In this document: piece after piece, positions 3,732 through 11,625 of the stretch
How positions within the stretch are numbered: position 1 is the first letter of the stretch
How the letters are laid out: the number at the start of each line of letters is the position of its first letter
Position numbers and translations under genes: made by a program
Origin: Roseibium marinum
GTDB taxonomy: Bacteria; Pseudomonadota; Alphaproteobacteria; Rhizobiales; Stappiaceae
Direction of reading: 5' to 3'
Assembly (NCBI RefSeq): GCF_002906165.1
Contig: NZ_PPCN01000015.1
Location: forward strand, 1 to 64,000
DNA length: 64,000 nucleotides
The notes under the pieces: generated by a model
Told to the model about the DNA's origin: nothing
Databases searched by the model: none
What the model saw: the letters and a program-made list of their open reading frames with translations, nothing else

Positions 3732-4127
3732 ATGCCGGCCAGGATCGTTCAACCGCAGGGCTGGGTTCCCGCGAAAGGCTACGCAAACGGTGTGCTGACC
3801 GAAGGGCGGACGCTTCATATCGGCGGCCAGATCGGCTGGAACGGGGATCAGGTCTTCGAGACCGGGGACTTTGTTGCCCAGATGGAGCAGACGCTCGCCA
3901 ATATCGCCGCCATCGTCGAAGAGGCGGGGGGCGCGGTGACCGATATCGTGCGTCTGACCTGGTTCATAACCGACAAGCGCGCATATCTGGCGCGGCAGAA
4001 GGAAGTCGGCGAAGCCTACCGCCGCGTCTTCGGCCGGCATTTCCCGGCCATGTCGGTTGTCGTGGTCGCCGGGCTGATCGAGGACGAGGCCCTCATCGAG
4101 ATCGAAGCCACCGCCCAGATCGGCTGA
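3732..4127 (+). CDS. RidA/YjgF/YER057c/UK114 family protein
   Basis: 131-residue protein of the RidA superfamily, trimeric enzymes that hydrolyse reactive enamine/imine intermediates or act on related small substrates. Family features are the NGVLTEGRTLHIGGQIGWNG strand-turn near residues 19-38, the QMEQTLANIAAIVEEAG helix and the C-terminal IEIEATAQIG strand. The conserved RidA Arg before the last strands is not in the canonical position (PAMSVVVVAGLIEDE), so it may belong to another Rid subgroup. A GGGGAG sequence lies about 9 bases before the ATG. It follows the LivF gene in the same direction, which suggests detoxification or processing linked to the imported amino compound. Confidence 0.88.
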   Translation: MPARIVQPQGWVPAKGYANGVLTEGRTLHIGGQIGWNGDQVFETGDFVAQMEQTLANIAAIVEEAGGAVTDIVRLTWFITDKRAYLARQKEVGEAYRRVFGRHFPAMSVVVVAGLIEDEALIEIEATAQIG

Positions 4128-4539
4128 GATGGAGGGTCATCTCTTGAGCCGGTCCATACCGGCATATTGCGAGGGATATTTCTATTAATACTTACATTTG
4201 AAATTTTTATACAAATATTTTTCAAGTTGATTTAATTAATTAACGAAAATTGTGGCGGAGAGAGCCTCCGCCACTGAATATTACCTAAAAAAAGATCTTA
4301 TTGAAAAATTATTTGCACTTCCATATTCCCTAAGTGCGCACCTATAATACTTGAAATTTTCTGAGTTGTCAAATCTGTTTTTATTTTTGCTTCATTAAAG
4401 CTTCAATTACGTTGCGTCGTCTAGAGTAAATTCGGCCTCTATAAACAGGTACCGTTCTCTCTTTTGGATGCCCGGCCACTTTAGAATCGATCTGCTTTCA
4501 GACCTGCAGTTGTTTCCGATTGCAGGTCTGAAAGTTGAT
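4128..4539. other. AT-rich non-coding stretch
   Basis: After the RidA gene the composition drops sharply, with long A/T runs around 4180-4250 and 4290-4400. No frame of useful length with coding character was found on either strand. It contains the 4495-4534 inverted repeat. The composition break against the GC-rich LivF/RidA side marks the left edge of the unusual block that runs to about 11.2 kb. Confidence 0.7.
4495..4534. repeat. Perfect 14-bp inverted repeat
   Basis: CTTTCAGACCTGCA (4495-4508) and TGCAGGTCTGAAAG (4521-4534) are perfectly complementary around a 12-nt loop. Allowing two mismatches, the arms extend outwards through GATC on both sides to about 20 bp. It lies immediately after the stop codon of the small reverse-strand gene at 4540-4740. 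It could be a 3' stabiliser or terminator for that gene, although no T run follows on the reverse strand, or a protein-binding palindrome. Confidence 0.75.
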
Positions 4540-4740
4540 CTAGTCGCGATCCTCTTTTTCAAGATCTGAAAGACTCACCCGGTCAGCCATCTTCACCAGC
4601 CAGGACAGTGTTTTCTTTTGCTGCTCGCTCAAATCACCTATTTCGCAAATCTGAATCACGGTTTGCCGGTGATAATTCCATGCAAGGAAGAAATCGACGA
4701 TATCCGCGACATCATCAATGTTCGTGCTCTTGGCTGACAA
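4540..4740 (-). CDS. Small hypothetical protein, 66 residues
   Basis: Reverse-strand gene encoding a 66-residue, strongly acidic, soluble protein. It starts MSAKSTNIDD and ends DLEKEDRD, with a predicted helical core (VADIVDFFLAWNYHRQTVIQI, then LSEQQKKTLSWLVKMADRVSL). There is no signal peptide, membrane segment or recognisable motif. The amphipathic helix pattern and the hairpin right at the stop favour a real gene over a chance frame. It is divergent from the SARP-like regulator at 4885, so the 4741-4884 gap probably holds both promoters. I do not recognise the family. Confidence 0.55.
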   Translation of the reverse strand: MSAKSTNIDDVADIVDFFLAWNYHRQTVIQICEIGDLSEQQKKTLSWLVKMADRVSLSDLEKEDRD

Positions 4741-4816
4741 TTCTCGCGCTCACTTTTAAGTTTACGATGCCGTGAGTTTAGAGGCATGGAACCGGTTGCG
4801 AGCGTGAAAAAAGTGT

Positions 4817-4841
4817 GAACCTATTGGTTCCGCCACGGAAC
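4817..4841. promoter_or_regulatory. Alternating GAACC/GGTTC/GGAAC half-sites
   Basis: GAACC (4817-4821) and GGTTC (4826-4830) form a perfect palindrome around TATT. The overlapping GTTCC (4827-4831) pairs again with GGAAC (4837-4841). This cluster of mutually complementary half-sites sits 44-68 bp before the regulator's ATG, in the divergent gap, and is followed by a TATAAA sequence at 4850-4855. It is a candidate operator, perhaps for the regulator itself; this is inference from position and symmetry only. Confidence 0.4.
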
Positions 4842-4884
4842 TGCTGTTTTATAAAACTACGCATTTTTGTCGAGGCAATGGGCT

Positions 4885-6528
4885 ATGTGCGCCAAAATAT
4901 TGGAAATAAACCTGTTCGGGTCCTGTTTCGTCCGTTCCGCTGAACCTGGAGCGTTCGAAATAACCGGCAAGAAGCACCGCGCGATCTTCGCTTTATTGGC
5001 GACGGCTCCGCACGGTTGCAGAAGCCGGACCTTTCTGCAGGAAACGCTTTGGGGGGTTGCGTGCTACGACACGGGCCGCCAAAGCCTGCGCCGTGCCCTT
5101 TCCGACATCAAGGCGGCTATGGGCCCCTATTACGGGCAACTGATCACCACCAACAATTCCGAGGTCACGCTCGATCTCGGCAAGGTCGCTTTCGCGGGCC
5201 GTCCCGGTCAGGGAACCTTTCTGGAGGGCCTGGACGTTCAGTCGCCGGATTTCATCGACTGGTGCAACGGGATCAGAGCCAGTCCTGACCAGATCTATTC
5301 CCTTTTCAGGCCGTCGTCCTCCTCCTCCCTGTCGAGGCCGCCTGTACCCACAGTCACGGTTCTGCCGCTGCTCAGCATCGAGAACAATCCGGAATTGACC
5401 GTTCTTGGAGACTGGTTCGCCGAAGAGATCTGCCGGTCCCTTTCGCGAACCAATCTTCTGTCGGTTATTTCCCACCTGTCGAGCCGCGCATTTGCCGGGA
5501 GACGGATCGATATTGAGGTTATTCGTGACAAGCTTGGTGTCGATTACTGCGTGAGTGGAAACATTCACAAGCTGGACGATCAGGTGATCACCGATGTCGA
5601 TTTTCTGGATGCCAGCTCAGGCCGGATCCTGTGGACCCGCCGTTTCAGTGGAAAATTCAGGGATTTCATCAGCGATGCGGGTCAAGGTCTCACCAACATC
5701 GTGCAGGCAGTCGGCAGTGCCATTGCGTCCGACACCCTGAATTATGTTCGCGGACGTCCCATTACCGAAATCTCCGACCACAGACTTCTCATGGCCGGTG
5801 TCAGCCTGATGCACAGGACGACCCTCCGTGATTTTGCGCAGTCCCGCGAGTTGCTTGACGAGGCGGTCAAACGGTCTCCGAGGTCCGCGGAGGTTCTTGC
5901 CTGGCGTGGCAAGTGGCACATCCTGAGTGTCGTCAACGGGTGGAGTTCCGATCCGGCCCAGGATACCAAAAGCGCTGTCGGCAGCACGGCGAAAGCGCTC
6001 GACATCGATCCCGAGAATGCGTTCTGCCTGACAATTGACGGATTCGCGCATAACAACCTGCTCAGAAGGCTGGACGTTGCTTCCGAACGCTACGGAATGG
6101 CTCTTACCGAGAACCCGAATGAAGCGCTGTCCTGGCTGTTGCGGGGCGCCTTGTTTGCATTTCAGGACGCCGGGCAACAGGCGGTTCACGCAGCGGAAAA
6201 AGCACGTCAACTTTCCCCCATCGACCCGTTCAAATATTTTTTCGATTCTCTGTGCTCCACAGCCTACCTGTCGGCAGGGGACTACACGCAGGCCTTGAAG
6301 TTCGCCGATATGTCGCTGGAGCGCAATCAGCGCCATTTGTCTACGCTGCGCGCCAAGATAACGGCGCTCCATTTTCTGGATAGGACAGAAGAAGCACGGG
6401 ATGTCGGCGAGGAACTTCGTCGCAGGCAACCGGGGTTTTCAGTCGAAGCATATATGCGCGCGCATCCGGCGGCGGATTATCATCTTGGGCAGAATGTTGC
6501 ACGCGCGTTAAGCGCGGTTGGATTTTAA
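4885..6528 (+). CDS. SARP-like winged-helix transcriptional regulator with TolB-like and TPR regions
   Basis: 547-residue soluble regulator. Residues 1-105 resemble the SARP/AfsR N-terminal DNA-binding domain (LFGSC, ITGKKHRAIFALLA, RTFLQETLWG, RQSLRRALSDIKAAMG). Residues 155-265 match the TolB-like segment often found in such regulators (VTVLPLLSIENNPE, FAEEICRSLSR, LGVDYCVSGNI, DASSGRILWTRRFSG). The rest, to about 520, is helical repeat of TPR type (LDIDPENAF, ERYGMALTENPNEALSWLLRGA). The ATG at 4885 is preceded by GAGG at a normal distance; a TTG at 4867 would add six residues. It lies 29 bp before the Gly-Val-repeat PAP2 gene on the same strand and is the likely controller of the cassette. 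No receiver domain is present, so how it senses a signal is unknown. Confidence 0.82.
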   Translation: MCAKILEINLFGSCFVRSAEPGAFEITGKKHRAIFALLATAPHGCRSRTFLQETLWGVACYDTGRQSLRRALSDIKAAMGPYYGQLITTNNSEVTLDLGKVAFAGRPGQGTFLEGLDVQSPDFIDWCNGIRASPDQIYSLFRPSSSSSLSRPPVPTVTVLPLLSIENNPELTVLGDWFAEEICRSLSRTNLLSVISHLSSRAFAGRRIDIEVIRDKLGVDYCVSGNIHKLDDQVITDVDFLDASSGRILWTRRFSGKFRDFISDAGQGLTNIVQAVGSAIASDTLNYVRGRPITEISDHRLLMAGVSLMHRTTLRDFAQSRELLDEAVKRSPRSAEVLAWRGKWHILSVVNGWSSDPAQDTKSAVGSTAKALDIDPENAFCLTIDGFAHNNLLRRLDVASERYGMALTENPNEALSWLLRGALFAFQDAGQQAVHAAEKARQLSPIDPFKYFFDSLCSTAYLSAGDYTQALKFADMSLERNQRHLSTLRAKITALHFLDRTEEARDVGEELRRRQPGFSVEAYMRAHPAADYHLGQNVARALSAVGF

Positions 6529-6557
6529 CAATAGTTTATTCTTAAGTGGAGGGCGAA

Positions 6558-7685
6558 ATGGCCTATTTCGGTGGTGTCGGTGGTGTCGGTGGTGTCGGTG
6601 GTGTTGGGGGTGTCGGCGGTGTTGGGGGTGTCGGTGGAGTAGGCGGCGTTGGAAATTTGAATCTGACAGGAATTGGCAGCTTTCTCGGCGCCGGTGCGGG
6701 TCCGGCTCTCGACCCGCTCACGGTTCAGGGATTGCAGACAAGTGCGCAGGCGATCTCTCACGCGGCCGGCGACGCAGCGGCGCACACGCCGAAAGAGCTC
6801 AAGTTTTCCTCTTCGGACAATCTGGATAAATGGGCGGATTGGGTGAGGGCGTCGCTTTATCTCAGCGACTTTTTGAGCGAACTGCACTGGGACATACGAG
6901 AGGAGCCGAACGGCGCCGTCGTCCTGTCGCATCAGGCCCGTGGCGGCAGTGCCCAGCCGTTTTTCGAGGTGACCCGTCCGGAGATGTCCGTGTTCGAGCA
7001 ACAGGTGAAGATCGTCCGGTCCTATATCGATCAAAGGCCGGAACGGACCCCCGAAATACTCAGCCAGCTCGGCTTCCCGACGCCCTATTTCGCCATGATC
7101 CTGGGCCTTTATCCGGCACGCAACCCGAAAACTCTGGAGCTGATCGCGATCACGCAGGTTCTGGCCTCGCACGTTGCCATGATCGTCAAACATCATCTGG
7201 CTATTCGTCGACCGGATCGGATTGATGCGACCGTTCTACCGATGATCACCACTCCGGGGCACGGGAGCTTTCCAAGTGCCCACGCGACGGAGGCCTTTGC
7301 CGTTGCGCGCGTGCTGGAAGGTTTGATCGACGAGAAAAAGTCCCACTATCCCGACCCTGACAAGCGCAAGAAGCTGGTGCGTAAACAGGCGGAACGGGTT
7401 GCGGTGAGCCGGACTGTCGCCGGCGTGCACTATCCGGTCGACAGTTGGGCTGGAGCGTTGCTTGGTAAAATGATCGGCGAAATCGTTTTGAACAAATGTG
7501 GCGTTTCACAGCTCATGACCGGCCTGAAATATGAAGCAAAGGCGGACTCCGATTTCATGCTCGCCCATTACAGGGATCCCGTCTGGAAAGACCATGGCGT
7601 GAGCGAACTCCAGAATTGCAAGGTCGCAAAAAGTTCCCTGTTTGAATGGCTCTGGGAGAGAGCGGTCGGCGAGTTCGACCAGTAA
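6558..7685 (+). CDS. PAP2/vanadium-haloperoxidase-fold protein with N-terminal Gly-Gly-Val repeats
   Basis: 375-residue protein. Residues 5-31 are nine GGV repeats. The C-terminal half carries the complete PAP2/vanadium-haloperoxidase signature: K211-x6-R218-P219, P239-S-A-H242, and S284-R-x5-H291-x3-D295. The fold either dephosphorylates lipid or soluble phosphoesters or, with vanadate, oxidises halides. There are no long hydrophobic segments, unlike membrane PAP2 lipid phosphatases, which favours a soluble haloperoxidase-like or non-specific phosphatase form. GGAGGG lies 5-10 bases before the ATG. The gene sits between the SARP-like regulator and the subtilase with short gaps (29 and 14 bp), so an operon is likely. 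The substrate is not predictable. Confidence 0.85.
   Translation: MAYFGGVGGVGGVGGVGGVGGVGGVGGVGGVGNLNLTGIGSFLGAGAGPALDPLTVQGLQTSAQAISHAAGDAAAHTPKELKFSSSDNLDKWADWVRASLYLSDFLSELHWDIREEPNGAVVLSHQARGGSAQPFFEVTRPEMSVFEQQVKIVRSYIDQRPERTPEILSQLGFPTPYFAMILGLYPARNPKTLELIAITQVLASHVAMIVKHHLAIRRPDRIDATVLPMITTPGHGSFPSAHATEAFAVARVLEGLIDEKKSHYPDPDKRKKLVRKQAERVAVSRTVAGVHYPVDSWAGALLGKMIGEIVLNKCGVSQLMTGLKYEAKADSDFMLAHYRDPVWKDHGVSELQNCKVAKSSLFEWLWERAVGEFDQ
6570..6650 (+). repeat. Nine tandem 9-bp units encoding Gly-Gly-Val
   Basis: The first three units are identical (GGTGGTGTC). Units 4-9 drift by third-position changes while keeping Gly-Gly-Val, which shows selection on the protein rather than a very recent expansion. 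Being a multiple of three, copy-number change would lengthen or shorten the tail without breaking the frame. Confidence 0.95.
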
Positions 7686-7699
7686 GCGGGAGCTCTGAC

Positions 7700-9838
7700 A
7701 TGACTGACGCAAGCACTGCAAGCGGCGATGGGAATTCCATCGCCGCGCTCGAGAGCTATCTCGGCCCTTACGAAGCCTGGAATTTCGGGATCGGAAGACC
7801 CTATGCCTTTCCCGTCTTCCGCGAAAACGACAACCACTTTCTAACGGCTCTCGCCGAACATCCGTCACCGAGGAAGCCTGAGCTTCTTGCAAGCACGGCC
7901 TCGACGGCCGGCCGACGGATGTGGCTGCCTACTGTCTGGGGCAAAAGCGAAAACATACCCCTGCGGTTCTGGCCGATTGTTGTCGAAAATAAAGCGAGAG
8001 GCGAGATCGGCCTGAAGAGTTTGCGGGTAGATCTTCAGGAAGCCGTCCAGTTCCAGGGGATCGATGAGCCCCGCTTTCGAATGGCGTTTCCGGTAGCCCC
8101 GGCCGCGATGCATGACGACATCGGCACCCTTCCGGCGGATCCCGACTGGTCACCGGATCCCGAGGTCAGAAAAAACAGCCAGGGCAAGGTCATCAATGTT
8201 CTGGCGGTCATCGACGACGGCATTCCCTTTGCCCATCGCAATTTCAGGGCCGCCGACGGCCTTAGGACGCGCGTTGAATTCTGCTGGGTTCAGTCGGCCG
8301 ACAAAAAGCCGGGCGCAGAGGCCTCGAGCGTTCTTTTCGGCAGGGAGTACACCCGTGATGTGATTGAACGGTTCATTCGTGAAAACGATGACGAGGATGC
8401 GCTCTATGCCGGCGCAGGGGTGTCCTCCGAACAGTTCGGATCACCTGCGGCAATCAATCGGCTCGCCACCCATGGTGCGCATATCATGGATGCTGCTGCG
8501 GGCTATGACCCGAACAAGTTCACTGACCCGCCGGAGGAAACCCGTCTGATCGCGGTGCAGCTTCCCAACACACTCGCGTGGGATACGTCGAGCTTCGGCA
8601 AAGACATGTATATGCTTTCGGCGGTTCATTACATTCTGGAGCGAGCCGAGAGGATCGCTGCCGGATATGGGGTTGAGGATATTCGCGTTGTCATCAACTT
8701 CAGCTACGGATTTTCCGCGGGCAGGCATGACGGGGCGAGCGAACTTGAGGCGGCAATAAACGAGATCGTGACAAAGCGCCGTGAACTCGGCAGAGCAACG
8801 GCACTCGTCATTCCATCGGGCAACACCTACCTGCAGCGCCTGCACGGCGAAATTACCGCGGAAGACCTCAAACCAGGTGCATTTGAATTTACCTGGACCG
8901 TTCAGCCGACCGACCGGACGTCCAATTATCTGGAAATCTGGTTCCCTGCCGGGTTTGATCCGGGCGCGTTCACAGTCGAGCTCGAGGGACCTTTTAAAAA
9001 AGCCAGTGCCGCGCTGAAGCTCAAGCCGAACGCCGATTTCGAAAATGGCGACCCGCGTAACTTTGAAGTCATACGGCTCGGTAACCGTCATCCCGCTCCG
9101 CATGTCGGTCAGATGAGTCTCGACAACCATCGCACGTCGGGGCGCTGGCGTGTCGTGATCGCGCTGGCTCCGAGTGAACCGGACGATCTTGATCTCCCCG
9201 CAGCGCCTGCCGGTGATTGGCGGGTCACATTGAAGCGTGGAAAGGGTGGGCCAGTTGACCATCCGCCGATCAATCTCTGGGTTCAACGCGATCTGGATCT
9301 GGAGGCTTTTCAAAAAGGGAGCCGGCAGAGCTATCTGGGCGATCCGCGCTACCGCATCTACAATGATCGCGGTGAACAATCCCAGAGCGATGACGCCGGC
9401 AGCCATGTCCGGCGATTTGGAAGTCTCAACGGTATGGCGACCGGCGAAACAACGCTGATTGTTTCCGGGTGCAAACCCGCCGCGGAGACACATTGGGATA
9501 CCAAAAAGCCTGTCCCAACAAGTTACAGTTCCTCCGGCAAGGTGTCCGCGGATAATCCGGTCGGCACCGTTGACTGTACCGCGCAAGCGGACCGGTCGAA
9601 TGTCCTGCCGGGGATGATCGGGGCGGGGACCCGCAGCGGGTCCTACGCGGTCGTGCAGGGAACGAGTGTCGCGGCGCCCCTGGTGGCAAGGCGGCTTTCG
9701 GAAGCCTTCGCGACCTGCTCACCTGAGGAAGTCGAGAAGGCCGGAAAGAAAAATTATCTTCCATTACTGAAAAAGATCCGCCTTCCGGACAACGATAAGG
9801 AAGCTTGCGCCAGACTCGGAAACTTCCTCATAATATAA
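7700..9838 (+). CDS. Cytoplasmic subtilisin-like serine protease (S8 family)
   Basis: 712-residue S8 peptidase. The catalytic triad is visible: Asp172 in VIDDGIP, His258 in ATHGAHIMD and Ser656 in QGTSVAAP, with the oxyanion Asn375 in IPSGN. About 160 residues precede the catalytic core. A roughly 200-residue insertion (about 380-600, rich in beta-like segments) separates the oxyanion Asn region from the Ser block. No Sec or Tat signal and no membrane segment are seen, so the protease appears intracellular or exported by a non-classical route. The ATG at 7700 has AGCGGGAG just upstream. It follows the PAP2-fold gene by 14 bp and is closed by a strong terminator, ending the transcription unit. 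Confidence 0.9.
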   Translation: MTDASTASGDGNSIAALESYLGPYEAWNFGIGRPYAFPVFRENDNHFLTALAEHPSPRKPELLASTASTAGRRMWLPTVWGKSENIPLRFWPIVVENKARGEIGLKSLRVDLQEAVQFQGIDEPRFRMAFPVAPAAMHDDIGTLPADPDWSPDPEVRKNSQGKVINVLAVIDDGIPFAHRNFRAADGLRTRVEFCWVQSADKKPGAEASSVLFGREYTRDVIERFIRENDDEDALYAGAGVSSEQFGSPAAINRLATHGAHIMDAAAGYDPNKFTDPPEETRLIAVQLPNTLAWDTSSFGKDMYMLSAVHYILERAERIAAGYGVEDIRVVINFSYGFSAGRHDGASELEAAINEIVTKRRELGRATALVIPSGNTYLQRLHGEITAEDLKPGAFEFTWTVQPTDRTSNYLEIWFPAGFDPGAFTVELEGPFKKASAALKLKPNADFENGDPRNFEVIRLGNRHPAPHVGQMSLDNHRTSGRWRVVIALAPSEPDDLDLPAAPAGDWRVTLKRGKGGPVDHPPINLWVQRDLDLEAFQKGSRQSYLGDPRYRIYNDRGEQSQSDDAGSHVRRFGSLNGMATGETTLIVSGCKPAAETHWDTKKPVPTSYSSSGKVSADNPVGTVDCTAQADRSNVLPGMIGAGTRSGSYAVVQGTSVAAPLVARRLSEAFATCSPEEVEKAGKKNYLPLLKKIRLPDNDKEACARLGNFLII

Positions 9839-9858
9839 AATAATTTATATTATCGATC

Positions 9859-9889
9859 TGGCCCGGTATTCACCGGGCCATTTGTTTTT
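9859..9889 (+). terminator. Intrinsic terminator after the subtilase gene
   Basis: Stem TGGCCCGGT (9859-9867) and ACCGGGCCA (9872-9880) with a 4-nt loop, followed by TTTGTTTTT. This is a textbook rho-independent terminator 20 bp after the subtilase stop. It also separates the SGNH-like gene at 10327 into its own transcription unit. Confidence 0.92.
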
Positions 9890-10058
9890 GGAACGGTTCA
9901 TTCACGCTTTTCTCACGAGCTTCCAAATCGAAATTGCTTATTATTACTGATGTCGGAAGGCGCAATGATGCGGCTCCGGTATAAGAGAGTTGTCTCGAGA
10001 TCATATGATTTCGCTTTGAACGACCTCTCCTTGGCAACATGACAAATTGTTTTCCGGT

Positions 10059-10078
10059 GCCGCCTGGGATCAGGCGGC
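10059..10078. repeat. 8-bp perfect hairpin in the gap before the SGNH-like gene
   Basis: GCCGCCTG (10059-10066) and CAGGCGGC (10071-10078) around GGAT. No T run follows. It lies in the roughly 440-bp gap 9890-10326 that separates the terminator from the SGNH-like gene and could be a leader structure. The left part of the gap (9890-10020) is AT-rich and probably carries the promoter. Confidence 0.45.
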
Positions 10079-10133
10079 TCGAGGGACTGTCATGCCTCAA
10101 GGAGCAGGCCACATTGTTGGCAGGAATGGAAAG

Positions 10134-10337
10134 ATGTCAGTTCAATCGCAGGTCCCCCGAAATGTTCCGGTTTCACGCCGCATCCGCTCGTCCGCGGAAG
10201 AGCCGCTTGGAACCATGGTCCTGGGTGACGTGCCCCATCGACCGCTGGACCGCGCAGTATTGCTTGCGGATCCCGCGGTCCCTGCACGCGCTGACTACTG
10301 CAATCTGCCCGGCTTAGGAGGTAGACATGTACGCTGA
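10134..10337 (+). CDS. Possible small upstream ORF (67 residues)
   Basis: A frame starting at ATG 10134 (MSVQSQVPRN) and ending GGRHVR overlaps the start of the SGNH-like gene by 11 bp, a layout compatible with translational coupling. A purine-rich GGAATGGAAAG precedes it; an in-frame ATG at 10092 would add 14 residues. The protein is rich in Arg and Pro, with no motif I recognise. Third-position composition is only moderately GC-rich compared with neighbouring genes, so it may be a chance frame. Confidence 0.28.
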   Translation: MSVQSQVPRNVPVSRRIRSSAEEPLGTMVLGDVPHRPLDRAVLLADPAVPARADYCNLPGLGGRHVR

Positions 10338-11226
10338 AGTCCTGGAAGCAACGGTACTGAATAATACGAGATTTGAAAAAGATCCGAACAAATGCCTTGT
10401 TTATCACATCCTCGATGAGAACAGGGCTCCCCTGACACCGGAGCAGGTGGCGGTGGAATGGTCCGCGATCGGCAAGGGTGACGATGCGCTTGCGCACAGG
10501 ATACGGCGATCGCCTACCAGTGTTTGCGCCGGCGGTGACGCCTGGGTCAACGTTCTGATCGAAGTGTCGCGTTTCCTCGGTTACAACAAGACTTTCTTCG
10601 ATGTGCTGGAAGGTTACTACGAAACCGCGAGCACCGCCTGGCCGAGCATCACATTCGCTCAGGTGGTCGAAAGAAAACCCTTCAAGCTGCATATCGATAA
10701 GGGACGTTTCGACTATTTCGTCTTTTCCGGCGGTGGCAACGAAATTCTCGGATGCGGTGTGCTGCAAAAGCTTTTGAAGGACCGCAGTGCCGGAAACGGC
10801 TCCGGCAAGCCCGAGGACTATCTGATGCCCGACAGGCTCGACGCCATCCTCGGCAAGCTCAAGGACGGATATCTGGACATCGCGCGGTATGTGAGAAACA
10901 CCTCACCCGGAACGCAGATGCTTGTCCATGGCTACGACTATCCCGTGGCCCGTGCCGACGGTCCCTGGCTGGGCAGGCCGTTCGTGCGGCGGAGTTTCGA
11001 CATGGGGGCGGACAAGGAACTGATCGCGGAAATTCTGGCCCATGTCATCGACCGGTTCTACGGCATGCTGGAGGAGGTTTCCGAAAAACACGCCAATGTG
11101 ACGGTCGTCGACATTCGCAACATCGTCCGCGGACGCTGGACCGACGAGATGCACCCGGATCTGGAGGCCTCGAAAGACATCGCGGCTTTCTACCGAAACG
11201 TCATCGACGGCTATCCGTCCATGTGA
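10327..11226 (+). CDS. SGNH-hydrolase-like protein with the nucleophile Ser replaced
   Basis: 299-residue soluble protein. It has the outline of an SGNH/GDSL hydrolase: block I as GGDAW (69-73), block III as SGGGNEILG (134-142), a middle strand LVHGYDYP (199-206) and block V as TDEMHPD (272-278), which supplies the Asp and His of the triad. At the block I position, where the family has Ser (GDS), the codon is GCC, giving Ala72, so the classic nucleophile is missing. The strong AGGAGG 4-10 bases before the ATG fixes the start. It lies after the subtilase terminator and is probably the fourth protein of the cassette. It may be a pseudoenzyme or binding protein; an unusual nucleophile elsewhere cannot be excluded. 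Confidence 0.7.
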   Translation: MYAEVLEATVLNNTRFEKDPNKCLVYHILDENRAPLTPEQVAVEWSAIGKGDDALAHRIRRSPTSVCAGGDAWVNVLIEVSRFLGYNKTFFDVLEGYYETASTAWPSITFAQVVERKPFKLHIDKGRFDYFVFSGGGNEILGCGVLQKLLKDRSAGNGSGKPEDYLMPDRLDAILGKLKDGYLDIARYVRNTSPGTQMLVHGYDYPVARADGPWLGRPFVRRSFDMGADKELIAEILAHVIDRFYGMLEEVSEKHANVTVVDIRNIVRGRWTDEMHPDLEASKDIAAFYRNVIDGYPSM

Positions 11227-11394: not shown

Positions 11395-11548
11395 TGAATG
11401 CGCGGGTGCGTGCTGCATGCCGCCGGCGGGCGATTTGCCGCTTTTATTGTGGTTCCATGATCGAATTTTCCGCCGACATCAAAGACTCTTTCCATGTATA
11501 TTAATAAATATCAATAACTTACGCCTTTCCTTCTTGTTCAAAAAAACA

Positions 11549-11580
11549 TTGTCTGACAAAGTATTTACAATGTCAGACAA
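11549..11580. promoter_or_regulatory. Tandem FadR/GntR-type operators
   Basis: TTGTCTGACAA (11549-11559) is a perfect palindrome about a central T and fits the FadR-subfamily consensus TNGTNNNACNA. ATGTCAGACAA (11570-11580) is a second copy whose inner nine bases are palindromic. Centres are 21 bp apart, two helical turns, so dimers would sit on one face of the DNA. Position just upstream of the GntR gene suggests autoregulation. Confidence 0.7.
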
Positions 11581-11625
11581 AGTGATATCGTGAATGAGAA
11601 CAATGAGAAAGGTCGCTCCCGGTCC

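Follow-up and report, generated by a model that had tools for sequence, protein, structure and literature searches.

What is the role of an enzyme whose sequence begins with one short peptide word repeated nine times over, and which of the proteins encoded beside it takes account of that word? The question is raised by a locus of Roseibium marinum (Alphaproteobacteria, Stappiaceae) that lies in a stretch of 64,000 nucleotides, referred to here as the window (contig NZ_PPCN01000015.1, positions 1 to 64,000 of the forward strand). Three genes encode a putative regulator (REG) with tetratricopeptide repeats (TPRs), an enzyme of the PAP2 fold and a subtilase of peptidase family S8, and the PAP2 protein starts with MAYF(GGV)9, so that the Gly-Val repeat described in a first-pass annotation as a tail is instead N-terminal, at 6570-6650. 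Comparison of this operon with its relatives reveals that three residues of REG co-vary with the repeated word in one large subfamily, and suggests that REG probably binds the array. Among the matches listed in a search of the open-access literature, with subscription papers and preprints outside its reach, no description of the operon was found, nor was any published function for TolB/TPR regulators that adjoin PAP2 and S8 genes.

The three-gene operon, with a repeat word that differs from species to species, occurs in many alphaproteobacteria and in some betaproteobacteria. In a scan of 84,980 species genomes, 504 of the more than 594 pattern matches encode a relative. The 80 of these that rank highest by PAP2 similarity were kept, and because they were ranked in this way these loci are not representative of more distant relatives. 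S8 lies 3' of PAP2 at all 80 loci and REG lies 5' of it at 79, the sole locus without REG in that place beginning at a contig end, and a gene is split into two frames at four loci (L119, L123, L140 and L176). The hosts include Bradyrhizobium, Bosea, Microvirga, Hoeflea, Marivita and other Rhodobacteraceae, with Kiloniella, Hydrogenophaga and a Comamonadaceae bin as further members, and the closest relatives among the matches listed are Labrenzia/Roseibium. The first-pass annotation had proposed a cassette of four genes, the fourth being an SGNH-like gene downstream, to be abandoned if homologues occurred independently in related genomes with no conserved adjacency. Since 79 of 80 relatives have the genes in the same order and on the same strand, REG, PAP2 and S8 are a conserved unit and do not scatter in this manner; the SGNH gene does not stay with them.

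Within 61 related genomes, an S8 match is found in 19 and a PAP2 match likewise in 19 (E 0.001), and all of the S8-positive and all but one of the PAP2-positive genomes belong to the genus of the window. Twenty same-genus regions comprise 17 with REG, PAP2 and S8 in this order on one strand, two with a diverged REG facing away and one with S8 alone, and four same-genus genomes carry two diverged copies of the operon. At a threshold of 1e-40, PAP2 matches occur in 90 of 394 genomes of a first sampled family, identified as Rhodobacteraceae by the identity of several REG ends with loci of that group, and in 31 of 250 genomes of a second. In the first of these families (that of genome G391), 17 PAP2 matches have one in-frame stop inside the matched stretch and may represent either proteins with a shortened C-terminus or genes in decay.

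A tandem array of one short word stands at the start of 173 of 175 PAP2 proteins, which among them use 73 words (those of L095, L104, L140, L162 and L171 were set by hand, and 10 loci share an identical REG C-terminus with another locus and are probably the same species sampled twice). The array starts at the fifth residue in 60 of 89. Three letters make up 58 of the 73 words, with four, six or nine in the others, and Gly is present in 57; examples are GGV, GGI, GGF, GGL, GGA, GTS, GLN, AMT, ATQ and AAH, as well as ADN, ARD, AEN, GTT, NTS, ASLWPR and, at L043, (NR)n. When applied to controls, the array detector responded to 0 of 90 REG proteins, 2 of 90 S8 proteins, 1 of 94 PAP2 cores and 88 of 1880 shuffled N-termini, and a search of the flanks of the 80 loci for runs of at least five copies found the same repeat in no other open reading frame.

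The codons of these arrays are synonymously scrambled while the residues are fixed, and uniformity of the word is under selection. Of 853 units in 89 arrays, 12 deviate; the proportion of synonymous differences (pS) is 0.75, near saturation, and that of nonsynonymous differences (pN) is 0.035, a value somewhat low by construction because arrays were located as exact runs and their ends trimmed. Recent DNA slippage as the origin of uniform arrays is rejected for most of them because their units differ at near-saturated synonymous sites; it fits a few young arrays, namely L138 (10 copies with 3 distinct units), L171 and blocks within L173. Adjacent units differ at the DNA level by a mean of 0.262, more than the 0.233 for all pairs within an array, as though neighbouring units were kept from being identical to guard against slippage. 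The word itself has changed at least 47 times on a PAP2-core tree of 94 rows, and 46 times on the S8 tree. Moreover, where two operons of one genome were both read, their words differ in 8 of 8 genomes (GGV/GLN, GGV/GSL, GGI/GSL twice, GVS/NK-type, GGF/AEN, ADN/NTS and FGS/EGGG), the two operons being diverged paralogues.

Among the three proteins, it is REG that follows these changes. In a distance test within close clades (500 permutations, for which the smallest reachable p is 0.002), differences in the word are accompanied by differences in the final part of REG (r 0.68, p 0.002), and no word signal appears in the N-terminal half of REG, the end of PAP2 or S8. A scan of 58 loci with GGX words, covering 1464 columns of the three proteins with clade-restricted permutations, ranked three REG columns at the top (codons 6496, 6484 and 6352 by position in the window; z 11.2, 10.9 and 10.1). 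These are followed by REG 6022 and 6154 (z 8.5 and 8.0), the best S8 column (8.0) and REG 6259 (7.5); REG 6361 has a z of 6.7 and the best PAP2 column one of 6.4. With the register set by eye, codons 6259 and 6361 occupy the same position in the A helices of two consecutive TPRs, and 6484 and 6496 lie one turn apart in the C-terminal helix.

The variable residue of the word can also be predicted from REG. For 63 GGX loci divided into 39, 23, 20 or 12 clades, with each clade left out in turn and four columns picked on the training clades, REG columns gave the correct residue at 51, 50, 46 and 42 loci, respectively. The corresponding counts are 21, 6, 5 and 9 for S8 columns, 12, 14, 14 and 11 for PAP2-core columns, and 9, 5, 5 and 11 for the majority label. 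S8 can thus be set aside as the reader of the word on both its silence in the distance tests and its poor prediction. Every fold picked the same three REG columns. With 23 clades, these three alone are correct at 54 loci, a figure less fair than the nested ones because the fixed three were picked on the same loci; REG without them is correct at 12 and the REG end without them at 25, and 300 random REG triples have a mean of 11.9 and a maximum of 28.

The residues involved form recurring combinations at 6352, 6484 and 6496. For V words the triplet is ALV in 9 of 11 loci; for I words it is A followed by I, L, V or F and then A in 13 of 16, the exceptions being VIA (one locus) and AIW (two). F words go with T/S-T-V in 14 of 19 (the others being TSI, TSV, ITL, VAV and VGV) and L words with T/S-A/V/I-V/M in 10 of 11, VIS being found in one, while T words have TFA in 2 of 2 and A words VTW in 4 of 4. 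Scored as independent pairs on the S8 tree, for traits that were defined after the alignment had been seen, the associations hold for V arrays and for I/T arrays (8-0 of 10 pairs in each case) and for F arrays (8-0 of 9), with p 0.008 in all three, and for I arrays (6-0 of 9, p 0.03).

Several results weigh against a simple pairing of REG residues with words. The permutation null leaves some phylogeny in place, and z exceeds 4 in 63 of 527 REG, 28 of 654 S8 and 15 of 283 PAP2 columns. The highest S8 count, 21 of 63, comes with the finest clades, and with 12 coarse clades the fixed three REG columns drop to 44 of 63 (REG without them 9, REG end without them 29). In independent pairs, significance is reached neither by L arrays (4-0 of 5, sometimes 4-1) nor by the residue at 6352 (about 4-0 of 8). 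Outside the training loci the rule is correct in 12 of 22 GGX loci. Five of the 22 have letters that training did not include; among the 12 correct loci, 7 repeat training species, and 5 of 10 new predictable loci are correct. From this partial success it follows that the mapping is valid for the subfamily to which the window belongs and does not extend to all loci. A different subfamily was examined through 13 loci that share a matching motif and have Phe as the second C-terminal site residue; F words go with Val there, and Y words with Asn, Thr or Ser. This contrast is suggestive and comprises 1-2 independent pairs, and a Tyr word outside this group (L223) has Met. Synonymous sites at the 3' end of REG also track the word in close clades (r 0.40, p 0.002, as compared with 0.68 for amino acids), the signal falling to zero by REG codons 300-400, and therefore the REG end and the array have in part travelled together, by descent or by exchange, as a single DNA segment. 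Finally, of 14 distant loci read for their third gene, three (L195, L199 and L201) have no recognised protease beside PAP2.

These points notwithstanding, REG probably binds the array, because it is REG columns and not S8 columns that predict the variable residue of the word. TPR models are the sole Pfam matches of the REG protein of the window, and TPR_2 and TPR_14 are found in 30 of 35 relatives; Trans_reg_C is matched by 4 of the 35, Guanylate_cyc by 6 and FlgO by 7, and the heads beyond the first two of these sets match neither model. By analogy, the head would be a SARP-like winged helix-turn-helix (wHTH) in the window, and either wHTH-like or cyclase-like across relatives, which places REG near TolB/TPR regulators with wHTH or adenylate-cyclase heads. 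The median length in 79 loci is 553 amino acids, with the longest open reading frame taken at each locus and the shortest two being pieces of split genes.

On this basis, it seems reasonably probable to us that the three genes form one signalling device in which REG reads the array of PAP2. The N-terminus of PAP2 would present a disordered array of identical short peptides, whose units the TPR groove and C-terminal helix of REG would bind specifically. The output domain of REG, wHTH-like or nucleotide-cyclase-like, would respond to the amount of array bound, probably by repressing or activating its own operon or through cyclase activity, and the adjacent protease would most likely cut the array or the complex, so changing or ending the signal. 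Any change of word would have to sweep through all units and REG. Because reader and word would be matched, arrays would be uniform, words would be specific to species, and two operons in one cell would use different words.

The third gene provides a further view of this proposed device. In the S8 protein of the window the catalytic Asp, His and Ser codons start at 8213, 8471 and 9665 and that of the oxyanion Asn at 8822; these four columns are invariant in 33 sequences, and the same-genus relative L055 has Glu in place of the catalytic Asp. The AlphaFold model has a predicted template-modelling score (pTM) of 0.91, no signal peptide is seen by eye, and Foldseek matches the CspA/B/C germination proteases (4i0w, template-modelling score, TM, 0.75 by target and 0.51 by query length). 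These subtilases of Clostridioides and Clostridium are the nearest solved relatives in both sequence and fold, with about 15% identity in structural alignments, although the operon has no spore context. In the 14 distant loci, the third gene, where a protease is recognised, is of unrelated kinds: an A4/G1 glutamic peptidase in five (L194, L196, L197, L198 and L203; Pfam 2e-18 to 1.5e-28), a shorter S8 after PAP2 in L192 and L193 (Pfam 7e-15 and 2e-22), the usual S8 in L204 and L205, and, in L200 and L202, an S8 in rearranged order that matches the S8 profile used in this analysis and no Pfam model. Replacement by an unrelated fold suggests that proteolysis is the needed function. As a separate observation, a second subtilase with PatG_C and PatG_D (cyanobactin-type) is encoded just 3' of the operon in Roseibium sediminis (L156:11507-13549).

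The constancy of a protease beside the array gene could also be understood if the array were a precursor holding many peptide copies, or a site of cleavage, from which tri- or hexapeptides are released as the signal itself, an extension of the first-pass suggestion that the subtilase cuts the Gly-Val tail. The presence of S8 at all 80 main loci, its exchange for an A4/G1 peptidase or a shorter S8 at distant ones and the disorder of the array in the AlphaFold model all suit this idea, as does the existence of Rap-Phr propeptides with tandem pheromone copies cut by proteases (PMC11343458). On the other side, prediction of the word from S8 columns is poor (5 to 21 of 63 by clade size), and no export signal is seen by eye on the array protein. 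We consider the precursor reading unlikely, if still worth some weight.

A second alternative supposes that the 3' end of REG and the array, which lie about 40 base pairs apart, simply recombine together without any binding, and that the array serves some other purpose. The association of REG 3'-end synonymous sites with the word in close clades, fading with distance, is what such hitch-hiking would produce, and the first 90 PAP2-core columns are weakly associated as well (r 0.22, p 0.03 with fine clades; 0.0 with coarser ones). Linkage alone accounts less readily for a signal that sits in three residues (54 of 63, compared with 25 for the rest of the REG end) and for an association that persists in independent pairs and across clades whose separation was set at an amino-acid distance of 0.5 (44 of 63), and we consider this explanation improbable.

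It is more doubtful still that the array is a structural element, such as a fibre, a bundle or a means of oligomerisation or phase separation, for which repetition alone is needed. The prevalence of three-letter words and of Gly would suit a three-residue helix; ADN, ARD, AEN, NTS, ASLWPR and (NR)n have no evident structural propensity in common, and the link to REG residues is left unexplained. As the sole reason for the array, a three-residue helix or collagen-like role is weakened by these Gly-free and charged words.

The enzyme that carries the array is itself a recognisable member of the PAP2 superfamily. The window protein contains the superfamily pattern K-x6-RP, PS-G/A-H and SR-x5-H-x3-D, which we take to be its catalytic motifs under their usual names, and K, R, P, PS, H, R, H and D are invariant columns among aligned members; the Ser that precedes Arg in the window is Asn in many relatives. 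In the AlphaFold model (predicted local distance difference test, pLDDT, 87.5) the array region, residues 1-46, falls below 50. The best Foldseek matches are class A acid phosphatases (7f17/7f18, TM 0.61-0.67 by target and 0.36-0.40 by query length), and acid phosphatases outrank vanadium haloperoxidases in both fold and sequence, so that a vanadium-dependent haloperoxidase is not the closest relative by either measure. The core fold and catalytic motif are common to all of these, whereas the PAP2 protein adds parts outside the core and the N-terminal array, and no signal peptide is seen by eye at its N-terminus. From the modelled fold, its chemistry would be more like that of an acid phosphatase than of a haloperoxidase. 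Two observations on neighbours may be added: animal-haem-peroxidase matches recur in 4 of 121 flanking proteins (one being L155:11382-12935) and may point to an oxidative role, and L192:3952-6084, just 5' of the REG-PAP2 operon of that locus, encodes a second protein of 711 amino acids with a weak PAP2-profile match (24 bits).

A defence or conflict cassette with PAP2 as a toxic, haloperoxidase-like effector is very improbable, for while the patchy distribution, the two copies in some genomes, the different modules at one site (L055-L058 and L068), the haem-peroxidase neighbours and single flanking matches to DndC, LmuB, TIR and BrxP models might be read in its favour, none of the four window proteins matches a PADLOC model, no defence family among the 25 of 37 listed occurs in more than 2 of 121 flanking proteins, and the PAP2 core is nearer to acid phosphatases. 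The defence role raised in the first-pass annotation accordingly finds no consistent setting. The site just mentioned is one chromosomal neighbourhood with a module near that of the window in L055-L058 and a very different module in L068, and may be a place where modules have been swapped.

The SGNH-like gene present at the place first described for it has a Pfam Lipase_GDSL_2 match below the cut-off (E 0.042), and its block I, as we take it to be, reads GGDA instead of GDS, the serine being apparently replaced. Nine same-genus genomes have it at 64% identity or more (L052-L058, L068 and the window); in each it adjoins the module, and the sites differ. Within the best 80 loci it appears in the fetched flanks of four, all Roseibium, and was not found in the other 76; weaker matches (25-36%) occur in five other genomes. 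A four-gene unit is therefore rejected, and the gene is better regarded as a Roseibium accessory that may be a lineage-specific partner.

The layout of the locus is summarised in Table 1. The gaps of 29 and 14 base pairs between the three same-strand genes and a single terminator after the third agree with the first-pass annotation, the terminator-like stem being followed by TTTGTTTTTG. REG could start at TTG 4867, and ATG 4885 agrees with orthologues. Of the AT-rich DNA described on both sides, that on the left is borne out, with a G+C fraction of 0.44-0.48 (4001-5000) compared with 0.60-0.66 before it; that on the right is not, as 500-base-pair windows give 0.59 and 0.56 with no dip, and a short AT-rich stretch is seen by eye near 11440-11600. 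Also by eye, a perfect 14-base-pair inverted repeat (arms 4495-4508 and 4521-4534, 12-base-pair spacer) lies 5' of REG and could be a candidate operator.

Table 1. Features of the Roseibium marinum locus, in window coordinates
Feature	Position	Strand	Evidence
AT-rich intergenic stretch 5' of the operon	4148..4866	.	composition
REG, 547 amino acids: SARP-like wHTH N-terminus (by analogy), TolB-like middle, TPR C-terminus	4885..6528	+	domain matches, conserved position
Word-tracking REG residues T (codon 6259), T (6361), A (6352)	6259..6363	+	column scan
Word-tracking C-terminal helix residues L (6484-6486), V (6496-6498)	6484..6498	+	column scan, prediction
PAP2-fold enzyme with N-terminal tandem array, 375 amino acids	6558..7685	+	Pfam PAP2 1.5e-9, AlphaFold, Foldseek
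(Gly-Gly-Val)9 array, 9 copies, 6 different 9-bp units	6570..6650	+	
Presumed catalytic motifs K-x6-RP (7188-7214), PSAH (7272-7283), SR-x5-H-x3-D (7407-7442)	7188..7442	+	alignment
S8 subtilase, 712 amino acids	7700..9838	+	Pfam S8 9.2e-6, catalytic columns, AlphaFold, Foldseek
Intrinsic terminator-like stem-loop	9859..9880	+	
SGNH-like accessory gene	10327..11226	+	weak Pfam match

How, then, does the operon relate to known peptide-reading systems? Its closest parallel is with the RRNPP(A) systems of Bacillota (Rap-Phr, PlcR-PapR, NprR and PrgX), in which, as described in PMC10075063, a TPR receptor is paired with an adjacent peptide gene. In these systems the peptide is matched to residues of the receptor, PhrF sitting on the concave face of the RapF TPRs with specificity relaxed by one residue change (PMC3601957), and some propeptides contain tandem copies and are matured by proteases (PMC11343458). 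The operon resembles them in its adjacency, kept in 79 of 80 loci, and in the TPRs found in 30 of 35 REG relatives, which would bind peptide in like fashion, and array recognition may, by analogy, work as it does in RRNPP systems. The criteria given in PMC10075063 call for a propeptide of 10-100 amino acids that is secreted (Sec or PptAB) and a receptor of 250-500 amino acids. Here the peptide sits on a protein of 375 amino acids, at whose N-terminus no signal peptide is seen by eye, and REG has 547. Because of these differences in propeptide and receptor, the operon is not filed as an RRNPP member. It is further unlike these systems in having about nine copies of the word at the N-terminus of an enzyme, a protease within the operon and hosts among the Pseudomonadota, and REG, longer than RRNPP receptors, has a wHTH or cyclase head and a TolB-like part. 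A more specific proposal, advanced tentatively and on the unlikely side in our judgement, is that the operon is an intracellular proteobacterial counterpart of RRNPP, in which an array ligand would be freed by a protease of exchangeable fold and read by TPRs, with word and three residues rewritten together to give private channels for each species and each copy.

The arrays themselves, uniform as protein and scrambled as codons, are a clear example of selection that acts on repetition itself. If REG does read the array, nature would have supplied scores of pairs of word and TPR reader, together with the changes that re-aim one at another, and these would constitute both a data set on how recognition can be rewired without loss of function and a source of orthogonal peptide tags. 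Known signals of the Pseudomonadota are typically small molecules, as stated in PMC10075063; the operon would then represent a peptide-TPR device in a phylum typified by signals of that other kind.

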